Shown: piece by piece, positions 510 to 20,470 of the stretch | How the letters are laid out: every line of letters starts with the position of its first letter | Position numbering within the stretch: the stretch's first letter is position 1 | Assembly: GCA_022563885.1 (NCBI GenBank) | Contig: JADFMM010000019.1 | Location: forward strand, 1 to 39,839 | Length of the DNA stretch: 39,839 nucleotides | Reading direction: 5' to 3' | DNA from: Planctomycetota bacterium | GTDB taxonomy: Bacteria; Planctomycetota; Phycisphaerae; Sedimentisphaerales; Anaerobacaceae | The notes under the pieces: model-generated | What the model was told of the DNA's origin: nothing | The model's database searches: none | Seen by the model: the letters and a program-made list of their open reading frames with translations, nothing else | Position numbers and translations under genes: made by a program

Positions 510-3173
510 CTAGGCATAGAGCGGTGCGGTTCGCTCGGTATCGATCTCAAAGGCCTTGATCGCCTCGGCGACCACGGCCTGTTTCACTTGACCCTCGTGA
601 CAGAGTTCACTCAGGGCGGCGACGACGATGTACTCCGCACTGACCTCAAAATGACGGCGCAGGTTGTCGCGGCCGTCAGAGCGTCCGAATCCGTCCGTGC
701 CCAGTGCGAGAAACCGGCCCGGCACATGGGCGCGAATCTGATCGGCGTAGGTCTTCATATAGTCCGTCGCCGCGACGACCGGTCCCGCCTCGCCCAATAC
801 CTGGGTGACATAGGCCAGCCGGGGGAGTTCTGTCGGGTGCAGCATGTTCCAGCGGCTGCATGTCTGTCCCTCTCGGGCCAGTTCATTAAAGGAGGTGACA
901 CTATAGACATGGCTGGAGATGCCGAAGCGTTCGGCCAGCAGTTGAGCCGCCCTGCGTACCTGGAGCAGGATGGTGCCCGAACCGAGCAGCTGCACACGAC
1001 TTGGACCTCCGGCCTGGACATGATCCAAGCGGTAGATCCCCCGTCGAATGCCCTCCTCGACGCCTTCCGGCAGGGGCGGCTGGGCATAGTTCTCATTCAT
1101 GCAGGTTATGTAATAGAAAACATCCTCCTGCTCCTGGAACATCCGCCGCAGGCCGTCCTGAATGATGACGGCCAGTTCATAGCCATAGGTGGGATCGTAG
1201 CTGATGCAGCTTGGGATGGTGTTGGCCAGGATGTGGCTATGACCATCGGCGTGTTGCAGTCCCTCCCCATTGAGCGTGGTCCGCCCCGCCGTACCGCCGA
1301 GCAGGAACCCCCGCGCCCGTTGATCTCCGGCCGCCCAGGCCAGATCTCCGACCCGCTGGAAGCCGAACATCGAATAGTAGATGTAGAAGGGGATCATGGG
1401 CGTGTCGTTGGAACTGTAGGAGGTGGCCGCCGCCAACCAGGAACTCATGGCGCCCAGTTCATTGATGCCCTCCTGGATCACCTGACCCTTTTGGTCTTCG
1501 CGGTAGTAGGCCACCTGATCCTTGTCCTGCGGGATGTATTTCTGTCCTTCGTGAGCGTAGATACCCACCTGACGAAAGAGCCCCTCCATGCCGAACGTGC
1601 GGGCCTCATCGGGAATGATGGGGACGATGTGTTTGCCGATCTTCTTGTCCTTGAGCAGAGAACTCAAAATGCGGCCCAAGACCATCGTCGTCGAGATCTC
1701 ACGATCACCGGAGCCTTGGGTCGCCGTCGCGAAGGATGTGAGGGGTGGAAGCTCGAGCGTTTCGGAAAACCGGTCTCGGCGCCAGGGCAGATACCCTCCC
1801 AATGCCTCCCGGTGACGTTTGAGGTACTGCACTTCCTCTGAATCCTCACCGGGATGGTAATAGGGGATCTCCTCCAACTCGTCGTCAGAGATGGGGATGT
1901 CGAAGCGGTCTCTGAAGTAGCGCACATCGTCCATGTCCATCTTTTTTACCTGGTGGGCGATGTTCTTGCCCTCGCCTGCCTTGCCCATGCCATAGCCCTT
2001 GACGGTCTTGGCCAGGATCACGGTGGGGCGTCCCCGGGTCTCGATTGCGTGTTTGAAGGCGGCATAGACCTTGAAGGGATCGTGTCCGCCCCGATTCAAA
2101 CGCCAGATGTCCTCGTCGGAGAGGTTTGCAACCATGGCCTTGGTTTCGGGATACTTGCCGAAGAAGTGCTCCCGCGTATAGGCCCCGCCCTTGGCCTTGC
2201 AGTTCTGGTATTCGCCGTCGACCGTCTCTTCCATCAATTCGAGCAGTTTGCCGGTCTTGTCCTGAAGAAAGAGGGGGTCCCAATAGCGACCCCAGATCAA
2301 CTTGACCACTTCCCAGCCGGCACCGCGGAAGGAGCCCTCCAGCTCCTGGATGATGCTGCCGTTACCCCGCACGGGACCATCGAGACGCTGCAGGTTGCAG
2401 TTGATCACAAAGACAAGATTGTCCAGGTTTTCCCGACTGGCCAGTCCGATGGCGCCCAGCGATTCTGGCTCATCCACTTCACCGTCGCCGATGAAGGCAT
2501 AGACCCTCTTCTGCGAACAGTCCTTGATGCCGCGGTCGGTAAGATATTTCAGAAAGCGGGCCTGGAAGATGGCAGATATCGGTCCCAGCCCCATGGACAC
2601 CGTGGGAAACTGCCAGTAGTGGGGCAGCAGACGCGGATGCGGGTAGGAGGGCAGGCCCTTGCCGTCCACTTCCTGGCGGAAACTGTCCAGTTGGTCCTCC
2701 GTCAGCCGTCCCTCCAGGAAGGACCGAGCATAGATGCCGGGAGAGCTGTGCCCCTGAAAGTAGACCAAATCGCCCCCGTCCGCGGAATCGGGGCCGCGAA
2801 AGAAGTGATTGAATGCGACATCATAGATCGTGGCCGCCGACGAGAAGCTGGCGATGTGCCCACCCAGTTCCAGGTCTTTCTTGGACGCCCGCAACACCAT
2901 GGCCACGGCATTCCAGCGGATGAGGGCGCGAATGCGCCGCTCCAGCGTCCTGTCCCCCGGCATCTGCGGTTCTTGCCAGGGAGCGATGGTGTTGGTATAG
3001 GCCGTTCTCCCCCGGTAGGGGAGATGACCGCCGCTGCGGCGCGTCTTGTCGATCAGCTTCTCGATGATGAAGTGGGCCCGATCCGTGCCATCCTGTTCGA
3101 TGACGGCATCGACCGATTCGACCCATTCGTGTGTTTCATCGGCGTCTATGTCTACGCCAAGGGTGTCAGACAT
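510..3173 (-). CDS. aceE: Pyruvate dehydrogenase E1 component, homodimeric type
   Basis: 887 residues, the same length as E. coli AceE. It decarboxylates pyruvate with thiamine diphosphate and reductively acetylates the lipoyl group of E2. The ThDP-binding motif starts at G229-D230-G231 and ends near N258 (VINCNLQRLDG). The order of conserved blocks matches the alpha2 family of E1 (N-terminal LIRWNAVAMVLRASK, SSPGIYARSF, GLPSYPHPRLLP, HSHILANTIPSC). The ATG at 3173 is preceded by AAGGA at about 7 bases. It is the first gene of an aceE-aceF operon; a lpd/E3 gene is not visible. The AGTAATCAG-type hairpin repeat lies 40-120 bases upstream of the start, in the promoter region. Confidence 0.97.
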   Translation of the reverse strand: MSDTLGVDIDADETHEWVESVDAVIEQDGTDRAHFIIEKLIDKTRRSGGHLPYRGRTAYTNTIAPWQEPQMPGDRTLERRIRALIRWNAVAMVLRASKKDLELGGHIASFSSAATIYDVAFNHFFRGPDSADGGDLVYFQGHSSPGIYARSFLEGRLTEDQLDSFRQEVDGKGLPSYPHPRLLPHYWQFPTVSMGLGPISAIFQARFLKYLTDRGIKDCSQKRVYAFIGDGEVDEPESLGAIGLASRENLDNLVFVINCNLQRLDGPVRGNGSIIQELEGSFRGAGWEVVKLIWGRYWDPLFLQDKTGKLLELMEETVDGEYQNCKAKGGAYTREHFFGKYPETKAMVANLSDEDIWRLNRGGHDPFKVYAAFKHAIETRGRPTVILAKTVKGYGMGKAGEGKNIAHQVKKMDMDDVRYFRDRFDIPISDDELEEIPYYHPGEDSEEVQYLKRHREALGGYLPWRRDRFSETLELPPLTSFATATQGSGDREISTTMVLGRILSSLLKDKKIGKHIVPIIPDEARTFGMEGLFRQVGIYAHEGQKYIPQDKDQVAYYREDQKGQVIQEGINELGAMSSWLAAATSYSSNDTPMIPFYIYYSMFGFQRVGDLAWAAGDQRARGFLLGGTAGRTTLNGEGLQHADGHSHILANTIPSCISYDPTYGYELAVIIQDGLRRMFQEQEDVFYYITCMNENYAQPPLPEGVEEGIRRGIYRLDHVQAGGPSRVQLLGSGTILLQVRRAAQLLAERFGISSHVYSVTSFNELAREGQTCSRWNMLHPTELPRLAYVTQVLGEAGPVVAATDYMKTYADQIRAHVPGRFLALGTDGFGRSDGRDNLRRHFEVSAEYIVVAALSELCHEGQVKQAVVAEAIKAFEIDTERTAPLYA

Positions 3174-3213
3174 TCTGTTTTCCTTCTCTTGAGGATAGGG
3201 TTCTCAGGCCGGA

Positions 3214-3293
3214 ACCAGTAATCAGTGAGGAAGTAGTCAGTAATCAGCCCAAACCGATGACTGAGGGAACCGAGCACCGATTACTGATCACTG
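3214..3293. repeat. AGTAATCAG-type hairpin repeat
   Basis: The stretch starts with ACCAGTAATCAGTGAGG and AGTCAGTAATCAG and ends with the inverted complement CCGATTACTGATCACTG, so it can fold into a hairpin. A related copy lies at 27305-27367. Both sit just upstream of a gene start: aceE here, the kelch gene there. It could be a transcribed hairpin or a dispersed palindromic repeat; its function is unknown. Confidence 0.6.
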
Positions 3294-3360
3294 TTTGCCG
3301 AACGATAGGCATTTTCGATAAATGGCGTTTCTGCAGCAAAGCGCACGATCTTGGCATTAA

Positions 3361-3597
3361 GAAGCGATCGCCCTGGTACCCCAGAATGGAGACGGGGCAA
3401 TCGAACAAGCGGCACTGCCGCAGCCAAAAACCGCGATTTCAAAGAACCCGCGCACAGAATCCAGCACAGTCTGCGGCGGAAAGGGTCAAAATGACCCTGG
3501 TTTGGCCCATCTTATCGAGGTCTGGCCGAACCTGCAAGCTCCCGTGAAACGGGACATTCTCAACCTCATGCAGCAGCAGGGAGGCGACCATGCGTAG
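3361..3597 (+). pseudogene. Remnant carrying an LxxLIxxWPxLxxxxKxxIL C-terminal motif
   Basis: An open frame of 78 codons between stops at 3358 and 3595 with no ATG, and no convincing start. It ends in GLAHLIEVWPNLQAPVKRD followed by ILNLM. This Trp-Pro/Leu pattern is familiar to me from C-termini of recombinase-associated or hypothetical proteins of Planctomycetota, but I cannot name the family. Its TAG overlaps the ATG of the next ORF (ATGCGTAG), which suggests the two were once translationally coupled. I read it as the surviving 3' end of a lost gene. Confidence 0.4.
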
Positions 3598-3826
3598 AGA
3601 GTCGACGCCTACACAACAGGAGAAAGGTTTAGGCAAGGGCGGTATCGCTCCACCGGTTGAGCATCAATTCAAGCCCGGCCCGTCTGGCAACCCGGCAGGC
3701 AGCCCGAAGGCCAAAACGAATCTCTACAAGCACATCGGCAAGTACTCAGGTATGAGGGACGCAGAATTGGCACAATCGGACCTGGAGAGCCTGACCCAGT
3801 CAGGGAAGGCGGCGCGAAGGGTGTGA
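3590..3826 (+). CDS. Small protein with DUF5681-like motif (possibly truncated)
   Basis: 78 residues. The segment FKPGPSGNPAGSPKAK (residues 27-42) matches the signature of DUF5681, usually FKPGQSGNPxGRPKG, found next to phage terminase or transposon genes. Family members are normally longer, so this is probably a truncated copy. The start is well supported: GGAGG lies five bases before the ATG, and the ATG overlaps the stop of the preceding remnant. The sequence after the motif (NLYKHIGKYSGMRDAELAQS) is not recognised. There are no phage or integrase genes nearby, so it appears to be a leftover of an inserted element. Confidence 0.5.
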   Translation: MRRESTPTQQEKGLGKGGIAPPVEHQFKPGPSGNPAGSPKAKTNLYKHIGKYSGMRDAELAQSDLESLTQSGKAARRV

Positions 3827-4243
3827 AAAAATCCGTTTCAAAACTTTAGGGAAAGGGGACACGTGACGCAGACAGCACCGCTTGGCAGTGACTCTGTATT
3901 TTTGATCACAGCAAAGGGGAGGGGATAATATGCAGTCACGGGAACGCCAGGTACCTCAGAAGGCAAGTTGTAGGTCATCGTGGAAAATCTGTAAGCCTAT
4001 GCATTCAAATAAGTCACACTTGATTAGGGGTGTGACATTGCTTAAGGCGTCTGCATGGAAACCACCGAAACTAAAAAACAAGGAGCACTACGTGATCAGG
4101 GGTCTTCATTTTCCACCTGGACCGTCTGCGTAACGGATCCCTTTAGGGCGGCATCCTGGACGGATGCAGTGCCAAGAGGAAGTGTGAGCATGGCGCACAG
4201 CAGAACACATGCCGGCAACCCGTGTGACCTCAATCGGTTTGTT
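3827..4243. other. Intergenic region, no gene seen
   Basis: About 415 bases between the DUF5681-like ORF and the stop of the acyltransferase fusion. The short open frames here have no recognisable product. No tRNA, clear terminator or inverted repeat was noticed. Confidence 0.5.
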
Positions 4244-7200
4244 TTACTTGATACCACTATTTTGACGCTCCATGATCATTGCGACTCCCATCCGCGTGCG
4301 GCACCGCCTTGCCAATTCTAGGCCAATGACACTGGCCCCACACAACGCCGTCATGGAAAACAGCACCCAGCCTAGCGGCCCGATGCTCTTGAGGGCATCT
4401 AGATCCGAGCCTTGAAGAAACGAGCTGGCCGAGCGCCTTTCCGTGTCGCGGAATATCTGAACGTCTTTGGCTGTGTAAAATCGCGAGGTTTCGGTCTGTT
4501 CGTCGCCATCAATGAAGGCGATGAACTCGAACTGAGCGGCATCGGTTTCATATTCCTCGTTGAATTTCTTGACCAGGTTGATGGCCGGCATGGTTTGCCG
4601 CCCCATGATCTCCTGCAGGGGAAAGTCGATCGTTCCGGAGTTTCCGCCGTAGGCGCGATACACGAGCTCGGTGCAAACGAGCATGTGGGTCGTTTCGAAG
4701 TCAAACTCAAAGTCGTAGGGTCGACCGGCGTAGCGGAATGCCGTTCCGATGGCGATGTTTTTCTCTTCTTCGCTGACCCTCGGCCGCAACACGGCGACCG
4801 AATCGGCGCCGCCGATCGAGTGCTCAAGCGACGAGAAGATGACGCCCTCGCTGACCGCCTCGATGATGACGTGCTCGTGGCCTTCATTATCCTTGGCGGC
4901 GAACGCCTCCCAATGTTTGCGTACGTGTTCATTCTCGTCGAGACCGCGTTGGCGCAAGTCCTCAGCCGTGCCGACATACACCGCACCGTGCGGCCAGTAG
5001 CCGGGCAAGAAGGCGTTTGAAAGATACCAGTTCCGCCGTTCCAGCAGGATGTCACCCGGCTGGAGCAGGGCGGCCAGCCTGGCAAGCTGCTTTTTATCGA
5101 TCAGAGGTTTTCCCATATGCGGTTGGCGGATCTTGAAATCTCCGATCCAGGTCGAGACGGCGGATTGCGTTGCGTAGCGAGCCTGATGAAGCAGTTTCCC
5201 CAGGTCCGCGACGGCAATTTCGATGATGCTCTCGAGGCCGCCGCCGCTCGCGCGGATCGTTTTTTCCGCCTCGGATATCGCCGTGTGAAACGGGTCGTAC
5301 TTCGCTGATTCGGATAGTCCGTGGGCCTTGAAGAGGTCTTGCACGTGATCCTGGTGGTAGTACTGCCGGGCCAGTTCGAACATTTCTCTGTTCCGGGTAC
5401 TGGCGAGATTACGCCGAATCATGTCGTAGAGCCCCGCCGGGATGCCCCAACTCGGCTCCGGTTCATTCAACTTGGCGACCGCCTCGGAGCTGTCGCCAAA
5501 TTGACGAACGAACTTCAGCGACGCCTGATAAAGCACGGCCGCCGCCGTGAAGTCCAAGAGAAACGTACGGTGGCGCAGCTCCTCATTTTCAATGTCAGCG
5601 TATCGTTGGTACCTCCAGACGATGCGCAGGAGAGCCTCGCGGTACGTGATGTATCGTCGCAGGTGTTCGCGGACGGCGTCGTCGTCCGCTTGACGGGCAA
5701 ACGACCGGAGTCCGTCGGCAAACTCGCCTTGAATCGTTTGCGCCTCGGTTTCGAGTTTGTCGAGGCCGCCGATGAGATGCACAATCGCCTTTTCGTCGGC
5801 GGTCAAGAAGGCTTCGATGTCGCGCTGAGGCATGTTCTTCAAGTCAAAGCCGTTACCACTGAGCGGATTGTCCAATAGTCTGTATTGCGCGACCCAAGCG
5901 ACCGCTGCGATGAGCAACACGACCAGGATTCTCACCGCCACGCGCGCCAAGCGTCGTTTGTTGAACGGCCGCGTTTTCGTTTCGGGTCGGGGGGAGACTT
6001 TCGCGTACTCCTCGGCCAACTCCTCGAGTCGATCGCGAAGCTCCGACTCCTGCCCGCGCAATCGTTTCAACGTGTCGCGGCGTACGGTCACACGCACCTG
6101 ATGCCAGAGCAGCTGCGCCGTCTGTCGGGCCCTGCGCCAGTAGTGGATGGCGATCACGCCGAAAAACGGCGCGGCGATCAGCCATGTCGCAAGGAACCAG
6201 GTGGAAAAATCATATCCGAACATCCACCACGCGACCACGGCGTACCAGATCAGATAGAGCGGCACGCCAACGAGCAGCCGGTTGGTCGAAATCGTGTTGC
6301 GCCCCGGCTGGTCCAGTTTCGCGGCCAGCCCGCGAACGATGACGAAGGGAACCAGGTGATGCAACGTGCCCACCAGCGCCGGGATGAACAAAAGAATCAG
6401 GCAAAGAACATTCCACAGCAGCTCCGCGCAAACCTTCATGCCGTGCAGGCGCAATACGGGCGAATCGATCCGCAGACCCGCCGATTGAACCTGATCACGA
6501 TACGCCTTGATATCGTCGGCGACCGATTCGGCACGCGCTCGATCGTTCGCCAGGAAATAATTCATGGCATCCGCGATGCGTTTCCGTCGCACGAGCGGTG
6601 GTACCGGCTCTTTTGCAGAGTCCTTCGGTGGCTCGACAAGGGTCTGGAGATCGTCGAGCCACGGCTCCCACTCAGGTTCGTCCAGATGCACGACGACATC
6701 CTTCAGGCGAGATTCGAGCTGCTGCGTGAGCGCTCGCCTGGCTTTGCGACCCTCACCCTCGTGTTGTGCCAGGCACTCGCGGACGTCGATGGGTTCTCCG
6801 ACTTGGATCCAGGCCGAAGAGCGAAACGCGTCCTTGCGTTCGTAGCTGATTCCGATCGGCACCACCCGTAGCCCCGTGGCCCCTTCTTCGACCGCTTGGA
6901 TGGCCATGCGGGCGGCGCCGGAGCGCACCATTTCGAGATGCGCTTGATCGGTTGATTTTCCTTCCGGAAAAATGCCCATCGCGTGGCCTTCGACCAGCAC
7001 TTTTGCGCCGAGGGCTAGGCTTTCGATGTTCCGTCGGACTTCGCGAGCATCGTCGCTGCCGCGAAAGGCCGGGATCATGCCCAGCGCAGTCATGGGCGGA
7101 CCGAGCAGGGGGTGGTCGAACAGGGGCGCCTTGGCCAGGAACCGAACCGGACGACGGGCGGCGATACCGATTAGAACGGGATCAAGCAGCGAATTCCCAT

Positions 7201-7342
7201 GATTCGCGCAGAGCAGGACGGGATCCGACTGGGAAATGCGATCCGCGTCGGTGATCTGGATATTGGGGTAGTATCGTCTGACCAACCAACGAACCAGGCT
7301 CCGCGTGAGTCCCCTCGCTTCCCCCGCTTGCTCGTTTGACAT
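4244..7342 (-). CDS. PlsC-type acyltransferase fused to membrane helices and a YiiX/LRAT-like permuted papain domain
   Basis: 1032 residues. Residues 1-250 form a glycerolipid acyltransferase domain: NHGNSLLDP puts the catalytic His at 48 and Asp at 54 (the H-x5-D spacing of the Gpt2-like branch), and FPEGKS at 125-130 is the acceptor-binding motif. Hydrophobic helices lie at about 305-340 and 350-400, with another at about 480-500. A charged helical region leads to a C-terminal permuted papain-fold domain (YaeF/YiiX, DUF830-like) with LLQPGDILL, H785 in WPHGAVYVG, E828 in IIEAVSEG and C890 in MLVCTELVY. A last membrane helix sits near 995-1015. Family knowledge: PlsC domains acylate lysophospholipids, and LRAT/YiiX-like folds act on acyl esters or amides. 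Inference: a membrane enzyme that both removes and adds acyl chains. It is the last gene of a four-gene operon, 13 bases after the PLD gene. Confidence 0.88.
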   Translation of the reverse strand: MSNEQAGEARGLTRSLVRWLVRRYYPNIQITDADRISQSDPVLLCANHGNSLLDPVLIGIAARRPVRFLAKAPLFDHPLLGPPMTALGMIPAFRGSDDAREVRRNIESLALGAKVLVEGHAMGIFPEGKSTDQAHLEMVRSGAARMAIQAVEEGATGLRVVPIGISYERKDAFRSSAWIQVGEPIDVRECLAQHEGEGRKARRALTQQLESRLKDVVVHLDEPEWEPWLDDLQTLVEPPKDSAKEPVPPLVRRKRIADAMNYFLANDRARAESVADDIKAYRDQVQSAGLRIDSPVLRLHGMKVCAELLWNVLCLILLFIPALVGTLHHLVPFVIVRGLAAKLDQPGRNTISTNRLLVGVPLYLIWYAVVAWWMFGYDFSTWFLATWLIAAPFFGVIAIHYWRRARQTAQLLWHQVRVTVRRDTLKRLRGQESELRDRLEELAEEYAKVSPRPETKTRPFNKRRLARVAVRILVVLLIAAVAWVAQYRLLDNPLSGNGFDLKNMPQRDIEAFLTADEKAIVHLIGGLDKLETEAQTIQGEFADGLRSFARQADDDAVREHLRRYITYREALLRIVWRYQRYADIENEELRHRTFLLDFTAAAVLYQASLKFVRQFGDSSEAVAKLNEPEPSWGIPAGLYDMIRRNLASTRNREMFELARQYYHQDHVQDLFKAHGLSESAKYDPFHTAISEAEKTIRASGGGLESIIEIAVADLGKLLHQARYATQSAVSTWIGDFKIRQPHMGKPLIDKKQLARLAALLQPGDILLERRNWYLSNAFLPGYWPHGAVYVGTAEDLRQRGLDENEHVRKHWEAFAAKDNEGHEHVIIEAVSEGVIFSSLEHSIGGADSVAVLRPRVSEEEKNIAIGTAFRYAGRPYDFEFDFETTHMLVCTELVYRAYGGNSGTIDFPLQEIMGRQTMPAINLVKKFNEEYETDAAQFEFIAFIDGDEQTETSRFYTAKDVQIFRDTERRSASSFLQGSDLDALKSIGPLGWVLFSMTALCGASVIGLELARRCRTRMGVAMIMERQNSGIK

Positions 7343-7355
7343 TACCTAGTCTCCT

Positions 7356-8573
7356 TCAATTGAACAACTGATGAAGTTGCTGCAGCGAGGCAATCACTTT
7401 ATTGTACTTGTCCAGCTCGGCCATCGATACCACTTTCTGACCCTGGCTCACCCGAAGGTCGACGGTCCTCTTGACTGCGGCGATAAACTCTGGATGATCT
7501 TTAACGACGACATCCATCTCGGCCGCACGTTGCATCGAAAAGACGGACGTATTCGCCGAACCGAGAATGACCAACTCGTCGTCGATCAACATGAGCTTCG
7601 AGTGGATCATCTTTTCGGAAAGATAAACCACGATGTCCGCCTGACGGAAGATCCGAAGAAGCGACCGGTAATTGATGTCGTTGCCAATATTGGCCACCTT
7701 GGAAAACAACATCGTGACCGGAACGCCGCGTTTGGACACCTCGATGATTTTTTGACTGACGTCCCGATCACCGATGTACGCCATTTCGATGTACAGCGAG
7801 CGTTTGGCGCCCGACATGATGTCGAGCATGGCCGGTTTGATCTCGAATCGCTTTTCCCCGTCGATCACATTGTTGAGCACGAAGTCGAGTGATCGCTCGG
7901 CGTCGAAGTCGACCGTGCCACAATGGCGGCGGTGGAATCGATCGATCGATTCCCGCCCGACAATCTCGACCATGTAGTCACGATATCCACGATGTCGGTC
8001 CTCGATGTTGATGCTACCGGTGATCATGACCCGTTGGTCGAAGATGTAATACTTGGTGTGCGTGTGATCGACCCATTCGATCGTGACGTTTTCGTGAGCC
8101 ATCACCTGCTGGCCGAGGCGGTCGTTGTAATCGTCCTCGACGTAGGACTCCGGAAACGTTAGCGCATTGAGCTTGTACATCAGGCGTTTGGAGGCCGAGA
8201 TCGGAATGTTGAAAAAGGATTTTCGGTTCATCTCGATCCGCTCGTACATGAACGCGCCGACGTCCTTGTGGATGTGGATCTTGACGCCGTGGTCGGCCGC
8301 CGCAAGAATCTCGCGACCGATCTGGTTCCCGATGTCATCATTTCGCCAGACGAACATGTGAATGACGATCGAGTCCGAGGCGTCTCTGATCCGCTGAAGC
8401 ACGCGGTGAAATGTCAAAGCCGCACCGTCCGTGTCGTGCACATCGGATAACAGTTCGATGCCTTGTTCGCTGGTTCCGTGTTCCATTTCCACTTCATCGA
8501 GATCCGAAATGATCTGCTGCGACGTGACTCGCTTCCTCACCCTGAGTCCCGATTCCTTCCAATGGGACACCAC
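7356..8573 (-). CDS. Phospholipase D / cardiolipin synthase-like protein
   Basis: 405 residues with two complete HKD motifs: H172-x-K174-x4-D179 (HTKYYIFDQRVMITGSIN) and H324-x-K326-x4-D331 (IHSKLMLIDDELVILGSAN). Two HKD motifs in one chain form the PLD active site used by cardiolipin synthases (ClsA/B/C), phosphatidylserine synthase and phospholipases. There are no obvious N-terminal membrane helices, so it resembles ClsB-type enzymes. The exact reaction cannot be told from sequence. The chosen start is a GTG with a weak ribosome site; Met30 is an alternative. It lies 30 bases after the amidohydrolase and 13 bases before the acyltransferase fusion, which suggests a shared role in phospholipid turnover. 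Confidence 0.9.
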   Translation of the reverse strand: MVSHWKESGLRVRKRVTSQQIISDLDEVEMEHGTSEQGIELLSDVHDTDGAALTFHRVLQRIRDASDSIVIHMFVWRNDDIGNQIGREILAAADHGVKIHIHKDVGAFMYERIEMNRKSFFNIPISASKRLMYKLNALTFPESYVEDDYNDRLGQQVMAHENVTIEWVDHTHTKYYIFDQRVMITGSINIEDRHRGYRDYMVEIVGRESIDRFHRRHCGTVDFDAERSLDFVLNNVIDGEKRFEIKPAMLDIMSGAKRSLYIEMAYIGDRDVSQKIIEVSKRGVPVTMLFSKVANIGNDINYRSLLRIFRQADIVVYLSEKMIHSKLMLIDDELVILGSANTSVFSMQRAAEMDVVVKDHPEFIAAVKRTVDLRVSQGQKVVSMAELDKYNKVIASLQQLHQLFN

Positions 8574-8603
8574 ACCGGATTATCTTTCATCATGCGGCCT
8601 AGG

Positions 8604-9602
8604 TCATCCATCACGCGGCGGGGATCGGAGTCCCATTAAATCCAGCAACTGACACGTATATGCCGAGCCGAAGCGAAACGATTGTTTTATCCGCAGGTCC
8701 ATGTCCAATCCGTTGTGGCGTTCCGGCGGAAACAGGCCGGTCCGCAACACAAACGGCAGGCGGGCAGGCGGGAACGGATAATCGCTGCCATGGAGAATGC
8801 GGGAGGTGATATCGGTTTCCGCCCGACTGAGGCGCCATAATGATGTCCAGCGAATCAGGCTAGCCATAATGGCCGTGTCGCCGTACAGGTTGTCGTGCCG
8901 ACGCATCATCTGCACAAAGGTGGGATAGTAGGTTTCCGGGTCAAACAGGGCGCAAGTGCCGCAATGCGCGGCGATGACAACCCCGCCGTGCTCGAGGGGT
9001 CGCGCCAAGCGTGTCGGGTCAGTGAACTTTTGCGATCGCACAGTACACGAATGTTCGTACCCGGTGTGAAACATCAGCACCACGCCGAGATCGGCGGCGC
9101 GACGATAGAAACCGTCAAAGCGGGACAGGGCAGGATCCACGCCCTGGATCGCCGTGTGGATCTTCACCAGTCGACATCCGGCCTCGCACACACGTTCTAG
9201 CTCGGCCAGTGCGTCGCGGCGAATCGGATTGATCGAGCAGCCGGGGAGAATCTTGGTCGACCTCTGAGCCAGATCTAGCACGTAGTCATTCGACACATAG
9301 AAATGTGTCGCCAAGTCGTCGCGCGTACCGTCATCGCGATACACGCTATCTTGCGCCAGTACCACCACATAGTCGAGCTCCGACTGATGTACGTGCCGTA
9401 ATAAGCGTGAGCGCAGTTTCTCGCTAATCGTCGCGCCCTCTTCCTTCTGAATGGCGGTCAGACGCAGCAGTAGTCTCGTCAACCATGCCCGCCGGGTCCG
9501 CGCCGAAAGAAACCCGTCGCGCGGGTTTTCACCCCAGCAGAACACGTGCGTGTGAGCGTCGACTAAGGGCTGTTCGCCGGGTGTTTGCGCTGCGGTGTTC
9601 AT
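8604..9602 (-). CDS. Metal-dependent amidohydrolase (Amidohydrolase_2 type)
   Basis: 332 residues forming a predicted TIM-barrel hydrolase. Visible metal ligands are H17-x-H19 (VDAHTHVF), a His in MFHTGYEHS, a His in IAAHCGTC and the Asp of HGSDYPFPP near residue 270. The substrate is unknown. No signal peptide is seen, so it should be cytoplasmic. It is tightly spaced inside the lipid operon: 22 bases after the MFS transporter gene and 30 before the PLD gene. This suggests it acts on a headgroup or other product of lipid turnover, but that is inferred from context only. Confidence 0.85.
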   Translation of the reverse strand: MNTAAQTPGEQPLVDAHTHVFCWGENPRDGFLSARTRRAWLTRLLLRLTAIQKEEGATISEKLRSRLLRHVHQSELDYVVVLAQDSVYRDDGTRDDLATHFYVSNDYVLDLAQRSTKILPGCSINPIRRDALAELERVCEAGCRLVKIHTAIQGVDPALSRFDGFYRRAADLGVVLMFHTGYEHSCTVRSQKFTDPTRLARPLEHGGVVIAAHCGTCALFDPETYYPTFVQMMRRHDNLYGDTAIMASLIRWTSLWRLSRAETDITSRILHGSDYPFPPARLPFVLRTGLFPPERHNGLDMDLRIKQSFRFGSAYTCQLLDLMGLRSPPRDG

Positions 9603-9624
9603 GACTTTTCAGAGGGTAACCAAC

Positions 9625-10896
9625 TCATTCCACATCCGCCAAGGTAAACCCCCGTGCCTTCAAGCGCCACGAGAAAAAGGCCACTCCCACCGCCATGAGC
9701 GCAGCACTGATTAGAAAGATCCTCTCTGGATTTGTACCGAAAAATTTACTAAATTCACTAATTATCCAGAATAGCAGCGAAGCCAGCAACAGGAAGGCAA
9801 ATGAAATGCAGTTGGCCGTACCCAGGAATCTCCCCCGCTCATCGCCCGGCGAGAGTCGCTGGAGCAAGGACTGCAGGGGGATGATGTAGAAGCCGGCAGA
9901 CACGCCCGCTCCGAAGATGAAAATGGCCACGTTTGGCATTGTTGGCGGAACAAACCCGAGCAGGGCGAAAAAGAACGTCAACCCCGCTGCGCCGATCGGA
10001 ATCAATCGCGGTCGTATGGTGTTCCCTGAGATCAATCCCGCTGCGACGCTTCCGAGACCGATCGCCAGGCCCATCACGCCCAGCAGCACACTCGCTTCCG
10101 TCCGCGTCACACTAAGCACATCGGAGTACTCCGGAATGATCAACAGCGCGAGACCTGCGAGAAAATAGAAATACCCCCATGCGAGCATTATCATCAGCAG
10201 GGGCTTAGCGGCTATTTCCCTGATCACGCTGAAATAGGTGGCGAACGGATTTGGGTCGTAGTTCAGCGTTCGATCGCCAGGCTCTAGCTGCTGTAGAAAT
10301 GTCACCGCAACAAGTCCCGCTATGGCGACGGCCACCATGACCACGCCAGGAAGCCAGAGAAGAGCAGGCATCGTACCACTGGGGTCTGGAAGCGGACTAT
10401 AGGCATCCGCAATAATCCCGGCCGAGTATGTCCCAAGGATGACCGCGATGTTGGTCATCATGTTGATGGTGCCGTTCGCCCGGCTGAGATCACGCGACCC
10501 CACCAGTTCTGGTATCATGCCGTATTTCGCCGGACCAAAGAATGCGCTTTGGCACGTCAATGCAATAAGAGCGCTCAAGGTGATCCACAAATTACCGATC
10601 CAGAAGCCGATCAGGGCAAGGATGGCGATGGGGATCTCGATTAGCTTGGCCAGCACGCTGACATAGCGTTTGCTGTTGCGATCGGCAAACTGACCCGCGT
10701 AGCCCGACAACACGATGAACGGCAGCGTGAAGCAGATGCCGACGATGCCCTGCCCGCCAGCACCAAGGTCACCCGCCCACGCCCCATTGATGACCATGAA
10801 AATCAGTACGCCCTTGAGGATGTTGTCGTTGGCAGCACCGAAGAACTGCGTGACGATCAGCGCGAGGAATCCGCGTTTCAGTAGTCTGTTTTTCAC
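9625..10896 (-). CDS. MFS transporter of the lysophospholipid transporter (LplT/Aas-associated) type
   Basis: 423 residues from the GTG at 10896, with about 12 hydrophobic helices. The N-terminus (FLALIVTQFFGAANDNILKG) and SAFFGPAKYGMIPELV are hallmarks of the LplT-like MFS branch, whose E. coli member flips lysophospholipids inward for reacylation by Aas. The GTG at 10896 has GGAGG five bases upstream. A second GTG at 10932 and an open frame up to 11094 add only low-complexity sequence. It is the first gene of the lipid operon, followed after 22 bases by the amidohydrolase. In E. coli LplT works with an acyltransferase; here the operon ends in a PlsC fusion, which supports the same logic. 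Confidence 0.85.
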   Translation of the reverse strand: MKNRLLKRGFLALIVTQFFGAANDNILKGVLIFMVINGAWAGDLGAGGQGIVGICFTLPFIVLSGYAGQFADRNSKRYVSVLAKLIEIPIAILALIGFWIGNLWITLSALIALTCQSAFFGPAKYGMIPELVGSRDLSRANGTINMMTNIAVILGTYSAGIIADAYSPLPDPSGTMPALLWLPGVVMVAVAIAGLVAVTFLQQLEPGDRTLNYDPNPFATYFSVIREIAAKPLLMIMLAWGYFYFLAGLALLIIPEYSDVLSVTRTEASVLLGVMGLAIGLGSVAAGLISGNTIRPRLIPIGAAGLTFFFALLGFVPPTMPNVAIFIFGAGVSAGFYIIPLQSLLQRLSPGDERGRFLGTANCISFAFLLLASLLFWIISEFSKFFGTNPERIFLISAALMAVGVAFFSWRLKARGFTLADVE

Positions 10897-11183
10897 GGTC
10901 CCCTCCGCGTTGGGTTGTTTTTGGTCCGTCACTGCGGCATCCCCTGCAGCTTGCTCAGAGTTCGAAGTCCATAAATCTCGGGCGACAGGCGGTCTCGTAG
11001 GCAATCCGCATCTGTCGCTGCTGCGCATACAGCCGAAGACAGGCCGTTGTGCACCCGTCATCGCTGATAACGGATGGGCATTTGGATTCTTCAACCATCA
11101 GAACGATTATACCCCTCTGAAGCAAGGCAGATCAAGGGGCTGTTGCATGTGGGGTGTACCCGGTCCATTTGAGCCCAGATACC

Positions 11184-11807: not shown

Positions 11808-12055
11808 TAAGAGATTGCGGCCGCGCATCAGTGAAAATCAGTGCCGATGCGTGTTCTTGTTTCCAACTCTCGAGCACTCCCTGCTCGGCTGGGCTGCTTT
11901 CTTCCTTGAATCGTTATCCCCCCCGGTTGTACAATCACCTGTGTAGGTTGTAATCAGATTTCTCCTATCCAATGTTATGCTCGCTGGTTTTCTGATAGGG
12001 GTGTCGTGCGCGACCTCCGCTGATGACGGCGTTGTCGAAAGGAGCGGACACGATC

Positions 12056-13534
12056 ATGCAGCCGGAAGAAGTGGTCCTTCAGACTGACCTCAAGCGCCTG
12101 GCCCCGCTGACCGAGGCGTTGCATGAAATGGCCGGAGACATGGTCGCGCTGCAACAGACCTTCAAGAGCAGGGAAAGGGGCTTTTACACCAGCGACGAAC
12201 ATGACGCGATCGAAAACCTGCTGTTCCGCTATGTGATGTGCCGCGATACGATGTGGGAGGTGGTCGACTTCCACCGCGACTACGAAACGCGCTTCACGAG
12301 CGAGGAACATCAAACCAAATCCTTCGCCATCGGCTTCGTCGCGGCGCTCAGCCTGTGTGAGTACGGGAGTTTGTTCGTCCACGCCTTTCTCGATTCGCCC
12401 CAGACAATCGCCAAACTCAACGAGGCCTACTACCGGCTGGAGATCCCGGAGGACACCTACGACCGGGTTTTCATGAGCCTGACGAATCCCGACAACATCC
12501 GCGACCTGCGCGCCGCGATGCAGATTTATTCCCAGGAGATGGCCAAGGCGAATACGCCGCTGCACCGGCTGGCCCAAACGGACCCCGCCTACGGAAAGCT
12601 GTTGAACGGCCTTCAAGAGAAGTGCGTCGAAGTCGATGCGCGCATCGAGGACATCCTGGAAAAACGCTCGTTGCTGAGTTCCGCGCTGCGCAACCAGCTG
12701 CGCCATTCCAAAATCAACCAGTTGGCAAAAGTGGCGCTTAAAAAGACCAACAGCGCCATGGAGGCGATCCGGGCGCTGACCTATACGCGTATGAGCCGGA
12801 TCAAGGAGCCGACCGCCGGGCCGCTTGATTTCACCGCCGCACAGTGCGTGCAATTAAAAAAAATGCTGCGGCCTGGCGACGTCATCCTCACTTATTCGGC
12901 CGGCTACATGTGCAACCTGTTTCTTCCCGGCACCTTCAAGCACGGCATCACCTACGTGGGCTCCCCCGAGGAGCGAAAGCAGGCCGGTCTGGAACAATGG
13001 GTGGAGGACAAGCAGCCCGCCCAGCGCGAAAAAATGCAACGGGACCTGGAGACCGCCAGCCTTCCCGACGGCTCGGAGGCCGACCTGATCGAGGCCGTGG
13101 CCGAAGGGGTGGTTTTCAATTCGCTACAGTACATTTTGAAGGCCAAGGCCAACCGGCTGGCGGTGTGGCGTCCGCGGCTGACGCACGCCCAGCGCATCAA
13201 TAGCCTGGGGACGGTTTTTTCTTTCCTCGGCTGCGGCTACGATTTTAAATTCGACTTCAACGACGCCTCCGAGCAATGCTGCACTGAGCTCATCTACCGC
13301 AGTCTGAACAAAGTCGGGCCCATCGAACTACCGCTCACCAGGCGCCTGGGACGCCAGACGCTGAGCGCGGACGATTTTTGCCAAAACGCCCTGAGACAGG
13401 GCACCGCCGTCTTTGAATTGGTGGCGCTGGCGGTGGCCGATGAATCTCCCTCTACAAACCGAAACCTCGCCGCAATTTACACCGGCCAAAAGGCCCTGGA
13501 CAAAATGCGGGACCTCGTGCGGGAAACAAGATAG
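12056..13534 (+). CDS. YiiX/YaeF-like permuted papain-fold protein, paralogue of the fusion's C-terminal half
   Basis: 492 residues. The ATG at 12056 is preceded by GAAAGGAG at about 11 bases; an ATG at 12023 lacks a ribosome site. The N-terminal about 250 residues are helical (for example LLNGLQEKCVEVDARIEDIL) and parallel the helical linker of the 1032-aa fusion, sharing blocks such as AKLNE. The C-terminal domain repeats all key blocks: MLRPGDVILTY, His in FKHGITYVGS, Glu in DLIEAVAEGVVFNSL, Cys in EQCCTELIYRS, then LPLTRRLGRQT. Family: permuted NlpC/P60-like cysteine hydrolases/acyltransferases (C92). No acyltransferase domain and no clear signal peptide. It lies divergently from the lipid operon, across a repeat-rich gap. 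Confidence 0.82.
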   Translation: MQPEEVVLQTDLKRLAPLTEALHEMAGDMVALQQTFKSRERGFYTSDEHDAIENLLFRYVMCRDTMWEVVDFHRDYETRFTSEEHQTKSFAIGFVAALSLCEYGSLFVHAFLDSPQTIAKLNEAYYRLEIPEDTYDRVFMSLTNPDNIRDLRAAMQIYSQEMAKANTPLHRLAQTDPAYGKLLNGLQEKCVEVDARIEDILEKRSLLSSALRNQLRHSKINQLAKVALKKTNSAMEAIRALTYTRMSRIKEPTAGPLDFTAAQCVQLKKMLRPGDVILTYSAGYMCNLFLPGTFKHGITYVGSPEERKQAGLEQWVEDKQPAQREKMQRDLETASLPDGSEADLIEAVAEGVVFNSLQYILKAKANRLAVWRPRLTHAQRINSLGTVFSFLGCGYDFKFDFNDASEQCCTELIYRSLNKVGPIELPLTRRLGRQTLSADDFCQNALRQGTAVFELVALAVADESPSTNRNLAAIYTGQKALDKMRDLVRETR

Positions 13535-18751: not shown

Positions 18752-20470
18752 TCAATTCGCCACACCGCTGGTAATGGCCGCGATGAATTTTGGATGATAC
18801 CCGCCAAAGTTCTTGCCAGCCGTTTGACGTGTCATGGTAATCACGAGATCCTTTTCCAAATCGACTCTGAGCGTGCAGGACGACGCTGATCCATGACCTA
18901 TCGTTCGCTGGCTGAGTCCGTTCCTGCGAAACCACGTCAGACCAATTCCCCAGGTAACGTCCGTGTCCGGGCCGAGGAGTTTGTCCAGTTTCTGTGGCAG
19001 CATCTGCTGGAAAGTCTCTTCGCTGAAGAATCGAAGGTTACCGTATGCGCCATGATTGGCCAGCATTTGACCAACGCGCGCCAGGTCGTATGCGTTTGAC
19101 CACGTCATGGCGGAACCGTCGATCGATTCGATCGATTCACAACCCAGCGGATCGAAGAGATACTTCTGGTAAAGACGGGGAAGCGCCAAACCGGTCAATT
19201 GTTCCAGGGCTTTCAGACCAATGGCAATACTCGAGCCGTTATACCGATGCTGTTTCCCAATCCCCAAATAGGGGTACGCCTCACCGTAAGCATGCTCGAG
19301 GTCGTTCCAGAGATCCGTGAAGTGGCCATCCATGTCGGCCGTGTGCGTAAAGAGGTGATGATAAGTGACAGGAGTCTCCACATCTCTGTCATTGAATTCA
19401 GGCAGTATCTTTCCGACCGGGTCGTTTAGACGGATAATGCCCCGATCAACAAACATCATCAGCAGAGAGCCCGACAGGGCTTTTGTGATGGAGTAGACGA
19501 CGTGGCGGGTGTCCGTCGTGATGGGTTCTCCGTTCCTGGAACCGTAGGCTCGATCGAAGAAAACGACCCCGCGCCGGGCAACGCATGCGTTGAACGGCTG
19601 ATCCGAATTGTTCACCCACTCCTCAAGCACGGCATGGATCTTCTCGACGGTACCGGGTTTCATGCCTGCTTCTTCTTCCGTACCCTTCCTCAACACAGGC
19701 GCGTTCAATCCGTCGACAGCCGCCGGCGTCACAATGTCCTGTGAAAAACGCTCTGCGTTGCCATTGAGCTTTCGTTTTAGTGTCAGCCACCATTGGCGGT
19801 CCATGGTGACAGCACTCTCCAGTTGTGACACGGGACCCTGCTTCGGGCTCATCTCGTTCATACCGGCTAATAGCACCGCTAAATCGTGGGAACGCTGGAC
19901 ATCGCGTTTGACGGCGGATGCAAGGTAGTCATTGACACTTTGCCGCTGATGGTACCATGTCCGCTCCGCCACACCGTAGCCGGGTGGTAGAGCGACTTCG
20001 CCTTGGATCTCATAGCCCCGTAATTGCTGGCGTTTCGGTGTCTTGTAAAGCGTGCGAAACCGTGTATAGACGCGGCCGTCCTCGGCCTTGATCTTCACGA
20101 CGGCGCCGTAACGCCCTGCGCCTGCCGGCTCATCGACGACCTCATAATCCTTGTTATAGAACGTAACGTCGATATCGTAGTCTCCCAGCCACTGGCGAGC
20201 CTCGTCGGGATTGACAAAATTGCATGACGGAAATCGTTTGTTCTGTCTACTCTCGCGGCCTCGATCCCGATCGGACTTTACTTCAAAAAAAACGCTGGGC
20301 TGAAAGACAAATTCAGCCTTCAGTAGGGGCCTTGCCCGGTCGGCCGCAGAATAAAACCCGGTTGTGGACGATTTGATTGGAGTCGGTTCCTGCTGCGCCT
20401 CACTCGTCTGGAATCCAAAGGCAGCCACGAAAAGCAAACCAAGCCCTGTGTATATCGTTTTTGTGCCCAT
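18752..20470 (-). CDS. Exported serine hydrolase of the beta-lactamase class C / esterase family
   Basis: 572 residues from the ATG at 20470, which opens a clear signal peptide (MGTKTIYTGLGLLFVAAFGF). Residues about 30-260 form an N-terminal region I do not recognise. Residues 260-572 are a beta-lactamase-fold domain: S327-I-T-K330 is the nucleophile motif, Y410-N-G occupies the place of the usual Y-x-N, and HGSASS near residue 530 is the third motif. The family includes esterases, D-aminopeptidases and class C beta-lactamases; the atypical second motif makes true beta-lactamase activity unlikely. It lies downstream of the chimeric pseudogene and 13 bases before the PQQ propeller. Confidence 0.88.
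   Translation of the reverse strand: MGTKTIYTGLGLLFVAAFGFQTSEAQQEPTPIKSSTTGFYSAADRARPLLKAEFVFQPSVFFEVKSDRDRGRESRQNKRFPSCNFVNPDEARQWLGDYDIDVTFYNKDYEVVDEPAGAGRYGAVVKIKAEDGRVYTRFRTLYKTPKRQQLRGYEIQGEVALPPGYGVAERTWYHQRQSVNDYLASAVKRDVQRSHDLAVLLAGMNEMSPKQGPVSQLESAVTMDRQWWLTLKRKLNGNAERFSQDIVTPAAVDGLNAPVLRKGTEEEAGMKPGTVEKIHAVLEEWVNNSDQPFNACVARRGVVFFDRAYGSRNGEPITTDTRHVVYSITKALSGSLLMMFVDRGIIRLNDPVGKILPEFNDRDVETPVTYHHLFTHTADMDGHFTDLWNDLEHAYGEAYPYLGIGKQHRYNGSSIAIGLKALEQLTGLALPRLYQKYLFDPLGCESIESIDGSAMTWSNAYDLARVGQMLANHGAYGNLRFFSEETFQQMLPQKLDKLLGPDTDVTWGIGLTWFRRNGLSQRTIGHGSASSCTLRVDLEKDLVITMTRQTAGKNFGGYHPKFIAAITSGVAN

Follow-up and report, generated by a model that had tools for sequence, protein, structure and literature searches.

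Gene organization of the locus

A 39,839-nucleotide stretch of DNA from a member of the Planctomycetota (order Sedimentisphaerales, family Anaerobacaceae; GenBank assembly GCA_022563885.1, contig JADFMM010000019.1), referred to below as the window, carries on its minus strand a candidate operon for membrane lipid metabolism. Its largest gene (4244-7342) encodes a 1032-amino-acid (aa) fusion protein in which a PlsC-type acyltransferase is followed by transmembrane (TM) segments, a helical region and a C92 domain, as judged from Pfam, hydropathy and an alignment of 24 such fusions. The host genome measures 6.5 Mb, is 96% complete and consists of 470 contigs, the window being one of them (C311). 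A preliminary description of this DNA had reported four tightly spaced minus-strand genes, and this is borne out by open reading frames (ORFs) at 4244-7342, 7356-8573, 8604-9602, and 9625-10896, which are separated by 13, 30, and 22 bp and encode, in this order, the fusion, a phospholipase D (PLD)-like protein, an amidohydrolase, and a transporter of the major facilitator superfamily (MFS). The domain identities assigned there were also confirmed by Pfam (Acyltransferase plus Peptidase_C92, PLDc_2, Amidohydro_2, and MFS_1, respectively). Upstream of the operon, a sigma-70-like promoter match, TTGATC-18-TATAAT (11106-11135, minus strand), agrees with the consensus at 10/12 positions and is a consensus match only.

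The fusion protein and its two active sites

The Pfam Acyltransferase match covers residues 28-166 of the fusion (70 bits, cut-off 23) and the match to Peptidase_C92 (PF05708), the YiiX/YaeF type of permuted papain, residues 760-931 (70 bits, cut-off 27). Hydropathy places hydrophobic or TM segments at about 308-326, 356-374, 381-399, and 468-486, and a C-terminal one at about 990-1008; the helical region, at about 510-740, lies between the TM bundle and the C92 domain. Conservation was assessed in 24 full-length fusions from at least seven planctomycete families, the homologues being 28-75% identical. In acyltransferase motif I, N47-H48-G-N-S-L-L-D54-P-V (7175-7204, minus strand), residues N47, H48, N50, and D54 are invariant, as is the stretch I124-G128 that overlaps motif III, F125-P-E-G-K-S130 (6953-6970, minus strand). 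The papain-type catalytic residues H785, E828, Y876, and C890 (4673-4990, minus strand; roles as in PMC3142127) and the GD motif G763-D764 are likewise invariant, the permuted order His, Glu, Tyr, Cys is kept throughout, and the same four residues do not vary in 14 C-terminal halves (C-halves), free-standing ones among them. H48, D54, FPEG, H785, E828, and C890 had all been named beforehand and all were found, invariant across the set; the earlier list had missed Y876, and motif I proves to be H-X5-D rather than the usual H-X4-D. The TM region also hits Anoctamin in Pfam (20.6 bits, cut-off 28; in 5/24 fusions), which was treated as chance hydrophobic similarity.

The spacing of motif I sets the acyltransferase half apart. 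Ordinary PlsC proteins of the window's order read NHQS(F/Y)(L/I)D, i.e., HX4D, with FPEGTR where this motif was read, whereas the fusion has HX5D and FPEGxS. In a survey of opisthokont acyltransferases, HX5D was confined to fungal glycerol-3-phosphate acyltransferases (GPATs), in which motif III is FPEG[G/T/I]S[H/Y] (PMC4207751). The original PlsC assignment thus has to be amended, since the motifs are those reported for fungal GPATs and not the ordinary HX4D/FPEGTR pair. HX5D spacing also occurs in 8/8 ORFs read in other genomes that comprise an N-terminal half (N-half) with TM bundle, and free-standing N-halves of about 430-690 aa with the same motifs and TM bundle are present in many genomes. 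One genome, G434 (L157:6180-9275), has two HX5D acyltransferase genes in tandem (C604:17651-19006 and 18958-20310).

Motifs I-IV of the fusion fit the fungal GPAT-B pattern (PMC4207751), and its N-half weakly matches ornithine-lipid acyltransferases. Both observations speak for a biosynthetic alternative, in which the HX5D head would be a glycerol-3-phosphate (G3P) or dihydroxyacetone phosphate (DHAP) sn-1 acyltransferase, and the papain head would N- or O-acylate an envelope component, i.e., a lipoprotein, an aminolipid, or a cell-surface amine, from a phospholipid donor; the LplT-like transporter would merely recycle the lysolipid by-product. If the acyltransferase is indeed a G3P/DHAP enzyme, the papain head would more likely serve a transfer reaction in the outer leaflet; two of its permuted papain relatives, LnsA and Lnb, act as N-acyltransferases on lipoproteins. 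However, the genome encodes PlsY, so that a second GPAT is not obviously needed. It also encodes Lnt, and among the fusion genomes checked LNT_N was missing only from one 80%-complete metagenome-assembled genome (MAG; G181), for which reason the fusion was rejected as a replacement for Lnt. This biosynthetic role is regarded as somewhat unlikely.

The genome further encodes two Aas-like proteins that combine PlsC with an AMP-binding domain, of 756 aa (contig C421) and 877 aa (contig C176). The acyl-acyl carrier protein (acyl-ACP) synthetase that had been described as missing is absent from the locus, but not from the genome if these two proteins are counted. Judged from these genes and those for PlsY and Lnt, Aas-like chemistry, standard G3P acylation, and lipoprotein N-acylation all look to be covered elsewhere.

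The papain half had previously been likened to the fold of LRAT/HRASLS enzymes. It belongs instead to the C92/YiiX type: Peptidase_C92 was matched in 24/24 fusions and the Pfam LRAT family in 0/24 at E <= 1, and membership of LRAT was rejected on this basis. Among solved structures, YiiX is its best sequence relative. AlphaFold2 models built with 9 and 11 rows reached a predicted local distance difference test score (pLDDT) of 64 and 68 and a predicted template modeling score (pTM) of 0.39 and 0.47. VIA-align gave a match to 3kw0_A of Bacillus cereus (Z 8.3, root-mean-square deviation 3.8 over 142 residues), the active-site loops of the model being unreliable, with pLDDT < 50, and a Foldseek search against the PDB returned nothing significant. 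For the helical region, VIA-align rows such as 14-3-3, syntaxin, and STAT (Z 8-11) are in the range common for helical bundles and were not interpreted.

In its crystal structure, YiiX holds a fatty acid in the active-site pocket (PMC3142127), and other enzymes of the permuted NlpC/P60 type act as phospholipases or as lipoprotein N-acyltransferases (PMC12994826, PMC7387801). Since Pfam calls the family amidase/peptidase, and canonical NlpC/P60 members cleave cell-wall peptides (PMC3142127), the C92 head could also be an enzyme that cleaves peptides or peptidoglycan as a peptidase or amidase, tethered to the acyltransferase but chemically unrelated to it. This is unlikely in view of the hydrophobic S1 pocket of the solved permuted members, the lipid substrates of those whose function was tested, and the long partnership with a lipid acyltransferase, which perhaps extends to the free-standing form.

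A free-standing C92 paralogue of 503 aa is encoded about 1.1 kb from the operon (12023-13534, plus strand). It shares 31% identity with residues 510-957 of the fusion, keeps the catalytic residues, and has no clear N-terminal TM segment or signal, so that it may be soluble. In a tree it lies on a long branch, grouped with short C92 proteins from other families.

Distribution and evolution of the fusion

Looking across genomes for PlsC joined to DUF830/YiiX, as had been suggested, showed the architecture to be real and widespread in Planctomycetota. A scan of genome contigs identified ten loci in further MAGs; at nine of these, the match to the fusion was long or full-length, at 38-75% identity. 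Among full-length relatives that have a name, the nearest carry the labels Pirellulaceae, Pirellulales, or Planctomycetaceae. A single frame holds PlsC, TM bundle, helical region, and C92 in families f74, f57, f38, f67, f32, f69, and the window's own f1. This recurrence in independent genomes rules out an assembly or frameshift artefact. A relative of the C-half is encoded in 60/392 planctomycete genomes; within the window's order (161 genomes), the fusion was found only in the window genome and a free-standing C-half in eight others. Viral contigs yielded no relative.

Trees built separately for the N-half and the C-half divide the fusions in the same way, into one clade comprising the window, f74, f57, and L049, and another comprising f32, f69, f38, and f67. 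This agreement indicates that the two halves travelled together, and the trees are compatible with one or two origins of the fusion. In one f57 genome (G299), the halves lie on different contigs (L161:6452-8197 and L088:9241-11061), each nested in the fusion clade, which is likely a later fission that kept both parts. Free-standing N- and C-halves also occur together in 11 non-fusion genomes, versus 2.5 expected (Fisher p 2e-6, uncorrected for relatedness), seven of the 11 being from one family.

Two fusion contigs carry labels from outside the phylum. That of L044, labelled Candidatus Nealsonbacteria, has a fusion 72% identical to that of the window in the same gene cluster and is very likely a mislabelled planctomycete; that of L049, labelled Akkermansia muciniphila (38% identity), may reflect either a mislabel or spread outside the phylum.

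Neighboring genes of the operon

The MFS transporter (9625-10896, minus strand; Pfam MFS_1 and NCBIfam) has 423 aa when read from a GTG start. Its long ORF begins at a TTG at 11094, but the alignment with orthologues sets in only at residue 67 of that frame, i.e., the GTG at 10896, in agreement with the start chosen in the preliminary description. In NCBIfam, the LplT portion of the LplT-PlsC-AAS fusion PRK08633 gives the highest score (242 bits over 404 positions), while the LplT equivalog scores 95 bits against a cut-off of 297; tblastn found a single match in the genome and no second copy. The PLD/cardiolipin-synthase-like protein (7356-8573, minus strand; PLDc_2) has two HKD motifs and 405 aa counted from the first start. 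Its conserved stretch starts around M30, the two HxK(x)4D motifs are kept in 4/4 orthologues, and its scores against cardiolipin synthase equivalogs (56-58 bits) are far under the cut-offs of 281-290. The third partner is a 332-aa Amidohydro_2 metal-dependent hydrolase according to Pfam (8604-9602, minus strand), in which H17-x-H19, H179, and H213 are invariant in 6 orthologues. At E < 1e-100, its orthologues turned up only in fusion genomes, the closest ones only beside or near the fusion. In a genome of a distant family (G317), a free-standing HX5D N-half directly adjoins a distantly related amidohydrolase (L147:1273-2877 and 2586-4037), an independent hint that the amidohydrolase belongs with the acyltransferase.

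Linkage of these genes to the fusion is a property of the window's clade. Among its close relatives, PLD adjoins the fusion in L041, with the amidohydrolase about 2 kb off, and in L042; amidohydrolase-MFS is divergent from the fusion in L043, as is PLD-amidohydrolase-MFS in L044. LplT-like and PLD neighbors occur only in this clade, and the amidohydrolase also in the sister family f74, where it directly follows the fusion. As far as the contigs allow, families f57, f38, and f67 have none of the three genes within about 10 kb, and beyond the window's clade no other neighbor recurs across the fusion families read. The neighbors thus cluster with the fusion in close relatives but were not seen near it in these families, which makes the LplT-like, PLD, and amidohydrolase proteins optional partners.

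One reading would give all four genes a role, by taking the operon as the bacterial equivalent of the N-acylethanolamine pathway of animals. Like PLAAT enzymes, the papain head would transfer a phospholipid acyl chain to the phosphatidylethanolamine amine, PLD would cut the N-acyl lipid, the amidohydrolase would cleave the released amide, and the LplT-like protein and acyltransferase head would recycle the lysophospholipid by-product. PLD and the amidohydrolase, in which no signal peptides were seen, would be cytoplasmic and the papain head outward (see below), so that the N-acyl lipid would need to be flipped. This reading is very improbable.

Membrane topology and proposed function

The two halves are joined by TM4 (residues 468-486; 5885-5941, minus strand), which flank charge in the 24 fusions predicts to run from inside to outside. 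Mean charge is +3.6 on its N side and -0.75 on its C side (p 2.5e-5, the homologues not being independent), the N flank is at least as positive as the C flank in 24/24 fusions, with equality in one, and the preceding loop is strongly positive. By the positive-inside rule, this asymmetry places the C92 half outside and the acyltransferase half inside, and the two active sites are accordingly predicted on opposite faces of the membrane, where any coupling between them needs a flip step. Where a TM5 exists, it runs in most cases into a tail rich in arginine. At their N terminus, free-standing C-halves comprise two or three TM segments, mostly with a positively charged loop preceding the last of them. 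Those of the window's order (L033-L039) mostly likewise possess two or three such helices, and no PlsC-type acyltransferase lies beside them in the stretches read.

The predicted topology bears directly on the earlier proposal that one polypeptide deacylates and reacylates lipids supplied by the transporter, which, read literally, has both heads serve one lipid pool on one face in place of Aas. Architecture and operon agree with it, but the heads are predicted on opposite faces, the acyltransferase has HX5D motifs, Aas-like proteins are encoded elsewhere in the genome, and the surroundings of the fusion are devoid of an LplT-like gene in most families; in this literal form the proposal is quite improbable.

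The reading tentatively favored here is that of a double-headed inner-membrane lipid enzyme driving a cycle of deacylation, flipping, and reacylation. The N-terminal HX5D/FPEGxS head would add an acyl chain to a glycerolipid acceptor on the cytoplasmic side, and the outward YiiX-type head would remove a phospholipid acyl chain by a Cys-thioester mechanism, acting as a phospholipase A if the chain goes to water and as a transacylase if it goes to an acceptor. The lysolipid left over would, in the window's clade, be moved inward by the LplT-like protein for re-acylation by the N-terminal head, and PLD and the amidohydrolase may act in the cytoplasm on related head groups or on lipids with an amide linkage. 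In favor of this reading are the invariance of both active sites, the agreement of the two trees, the co-occurrence of free-standing halves, the charge pattern around TM4, the fatty acid bound by YiiX and the lipid activities of its permuted relatives, the LplT/Aas precedent of E. coli, and the presence in the operon of the LplT-like gene, the only one found in the genome. Architecture, conserved active sites, the shared inheritance of the halves, and linkage within the clade are observed, and sidedness is predicted from sequence; the acyl chemistry, the lipid substrates, the cycle, and the roles of PLD and the amidohydrolase are those suggested by the protein families only.

Several points weigh against this cycle. 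The acyltransferase motifs point to a G3P/DHAP acceptor rather than a lysophospholipid, the LplT-like protein may in truth work with the Aas-like proteins of the genome, and in most fusion families no LplT-like gene was seen close by. The charge asymmetry around TM5 is not significant (p 0.1), an odd number of hydrophobic segments precedes the positive loop, so that one of them (within about 301-343) must be re-entrant, and the active-site loops of the models are too weak to establish His785/Cys890 geometry.

If true, the double-headed enzyme would link lipid chemistry on both inner-membrane faces within one polypeptide, in a phylum with unusual membranes, and offer a testable alternative to LplT-Aas. 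It would also suggest a role in lipid acyl transfer or deacylation for the large, mostly uncharacterized YiiX/YaeF family, and tie to such chemistry a bacterial HX5D acyltransferase family whose motif was hitherto noted as distinctive of fungal GPATs.

Comparison with known systems

The architecture had been put forward as undescribed, and no paper on a PlsC-C92 fusion was found in the literature searched, the coverage of which is incomplete. Single domains and LplT-Aas fusions are already known.

In E. coli, LplT/Aas flips and re-acylates lysolipids (PMC11416262). The operon resembles LplT-Aas and the single-ORF LplT-PlsC-AAS (PRK08633) in encoding an LplT-like MFS transporter with a PlsC-type acyltransferase, and the logic of flipping followed by re-acylation is the one proposed for it. 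It differs in having no acyl-ACP synthetase at the locus, an HX5D acyltransferase with its own TM bundle, a fused papain domain that is predicted to be extracytoplasmic, and PLD and amidohydrolase neighbors. With fungal GPATs of the Sct1/Gpt2 type (fGPAT-A/B, PMC4207751), the acyltransferase half shares HX5D, motif II IPAFR, motif III FPEGxS, and motif IV VVPIG, whereas the protein here is bacterial and C92-fused, and its motifs II and III lie only some 30 residues apart.

A PlsC-type domain joined to a second acyltransferase has a precedent in OlsF, a bifunctional ornithine-lipid synthase. There, the partner domain is GNAT-type and not papain-type as in the fusion, and the OlsF match is weak.

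The papain half shares its C92 match, H/E/Y/C set, and GD motif with YiiX/YaeF enzymes (E. coli YiiX, 2if6; B. cereus BCE_A0238, 3kw0). It differs from them in being preceded by a helical region of about 230 aa and tethered to an acyltransferase, and in its His-to-Glu stretch, which spans 43 residues versus 15 in BcPPNE numbering. With LRAT/HRASLS (PLAAT) enzymes it has a common superfamily and permuted topology. LnsA of S. aureus, Lnb of Bacteroides, and Tox-Act1 of the Salmonella type VI secretion system are, similarly, permuted papain-fold lipid acyltransferases or phospholipases, but they belong to other subfamilies, none is described as PlsC-fused, and the genomes that encode the fusion retain Lnt.

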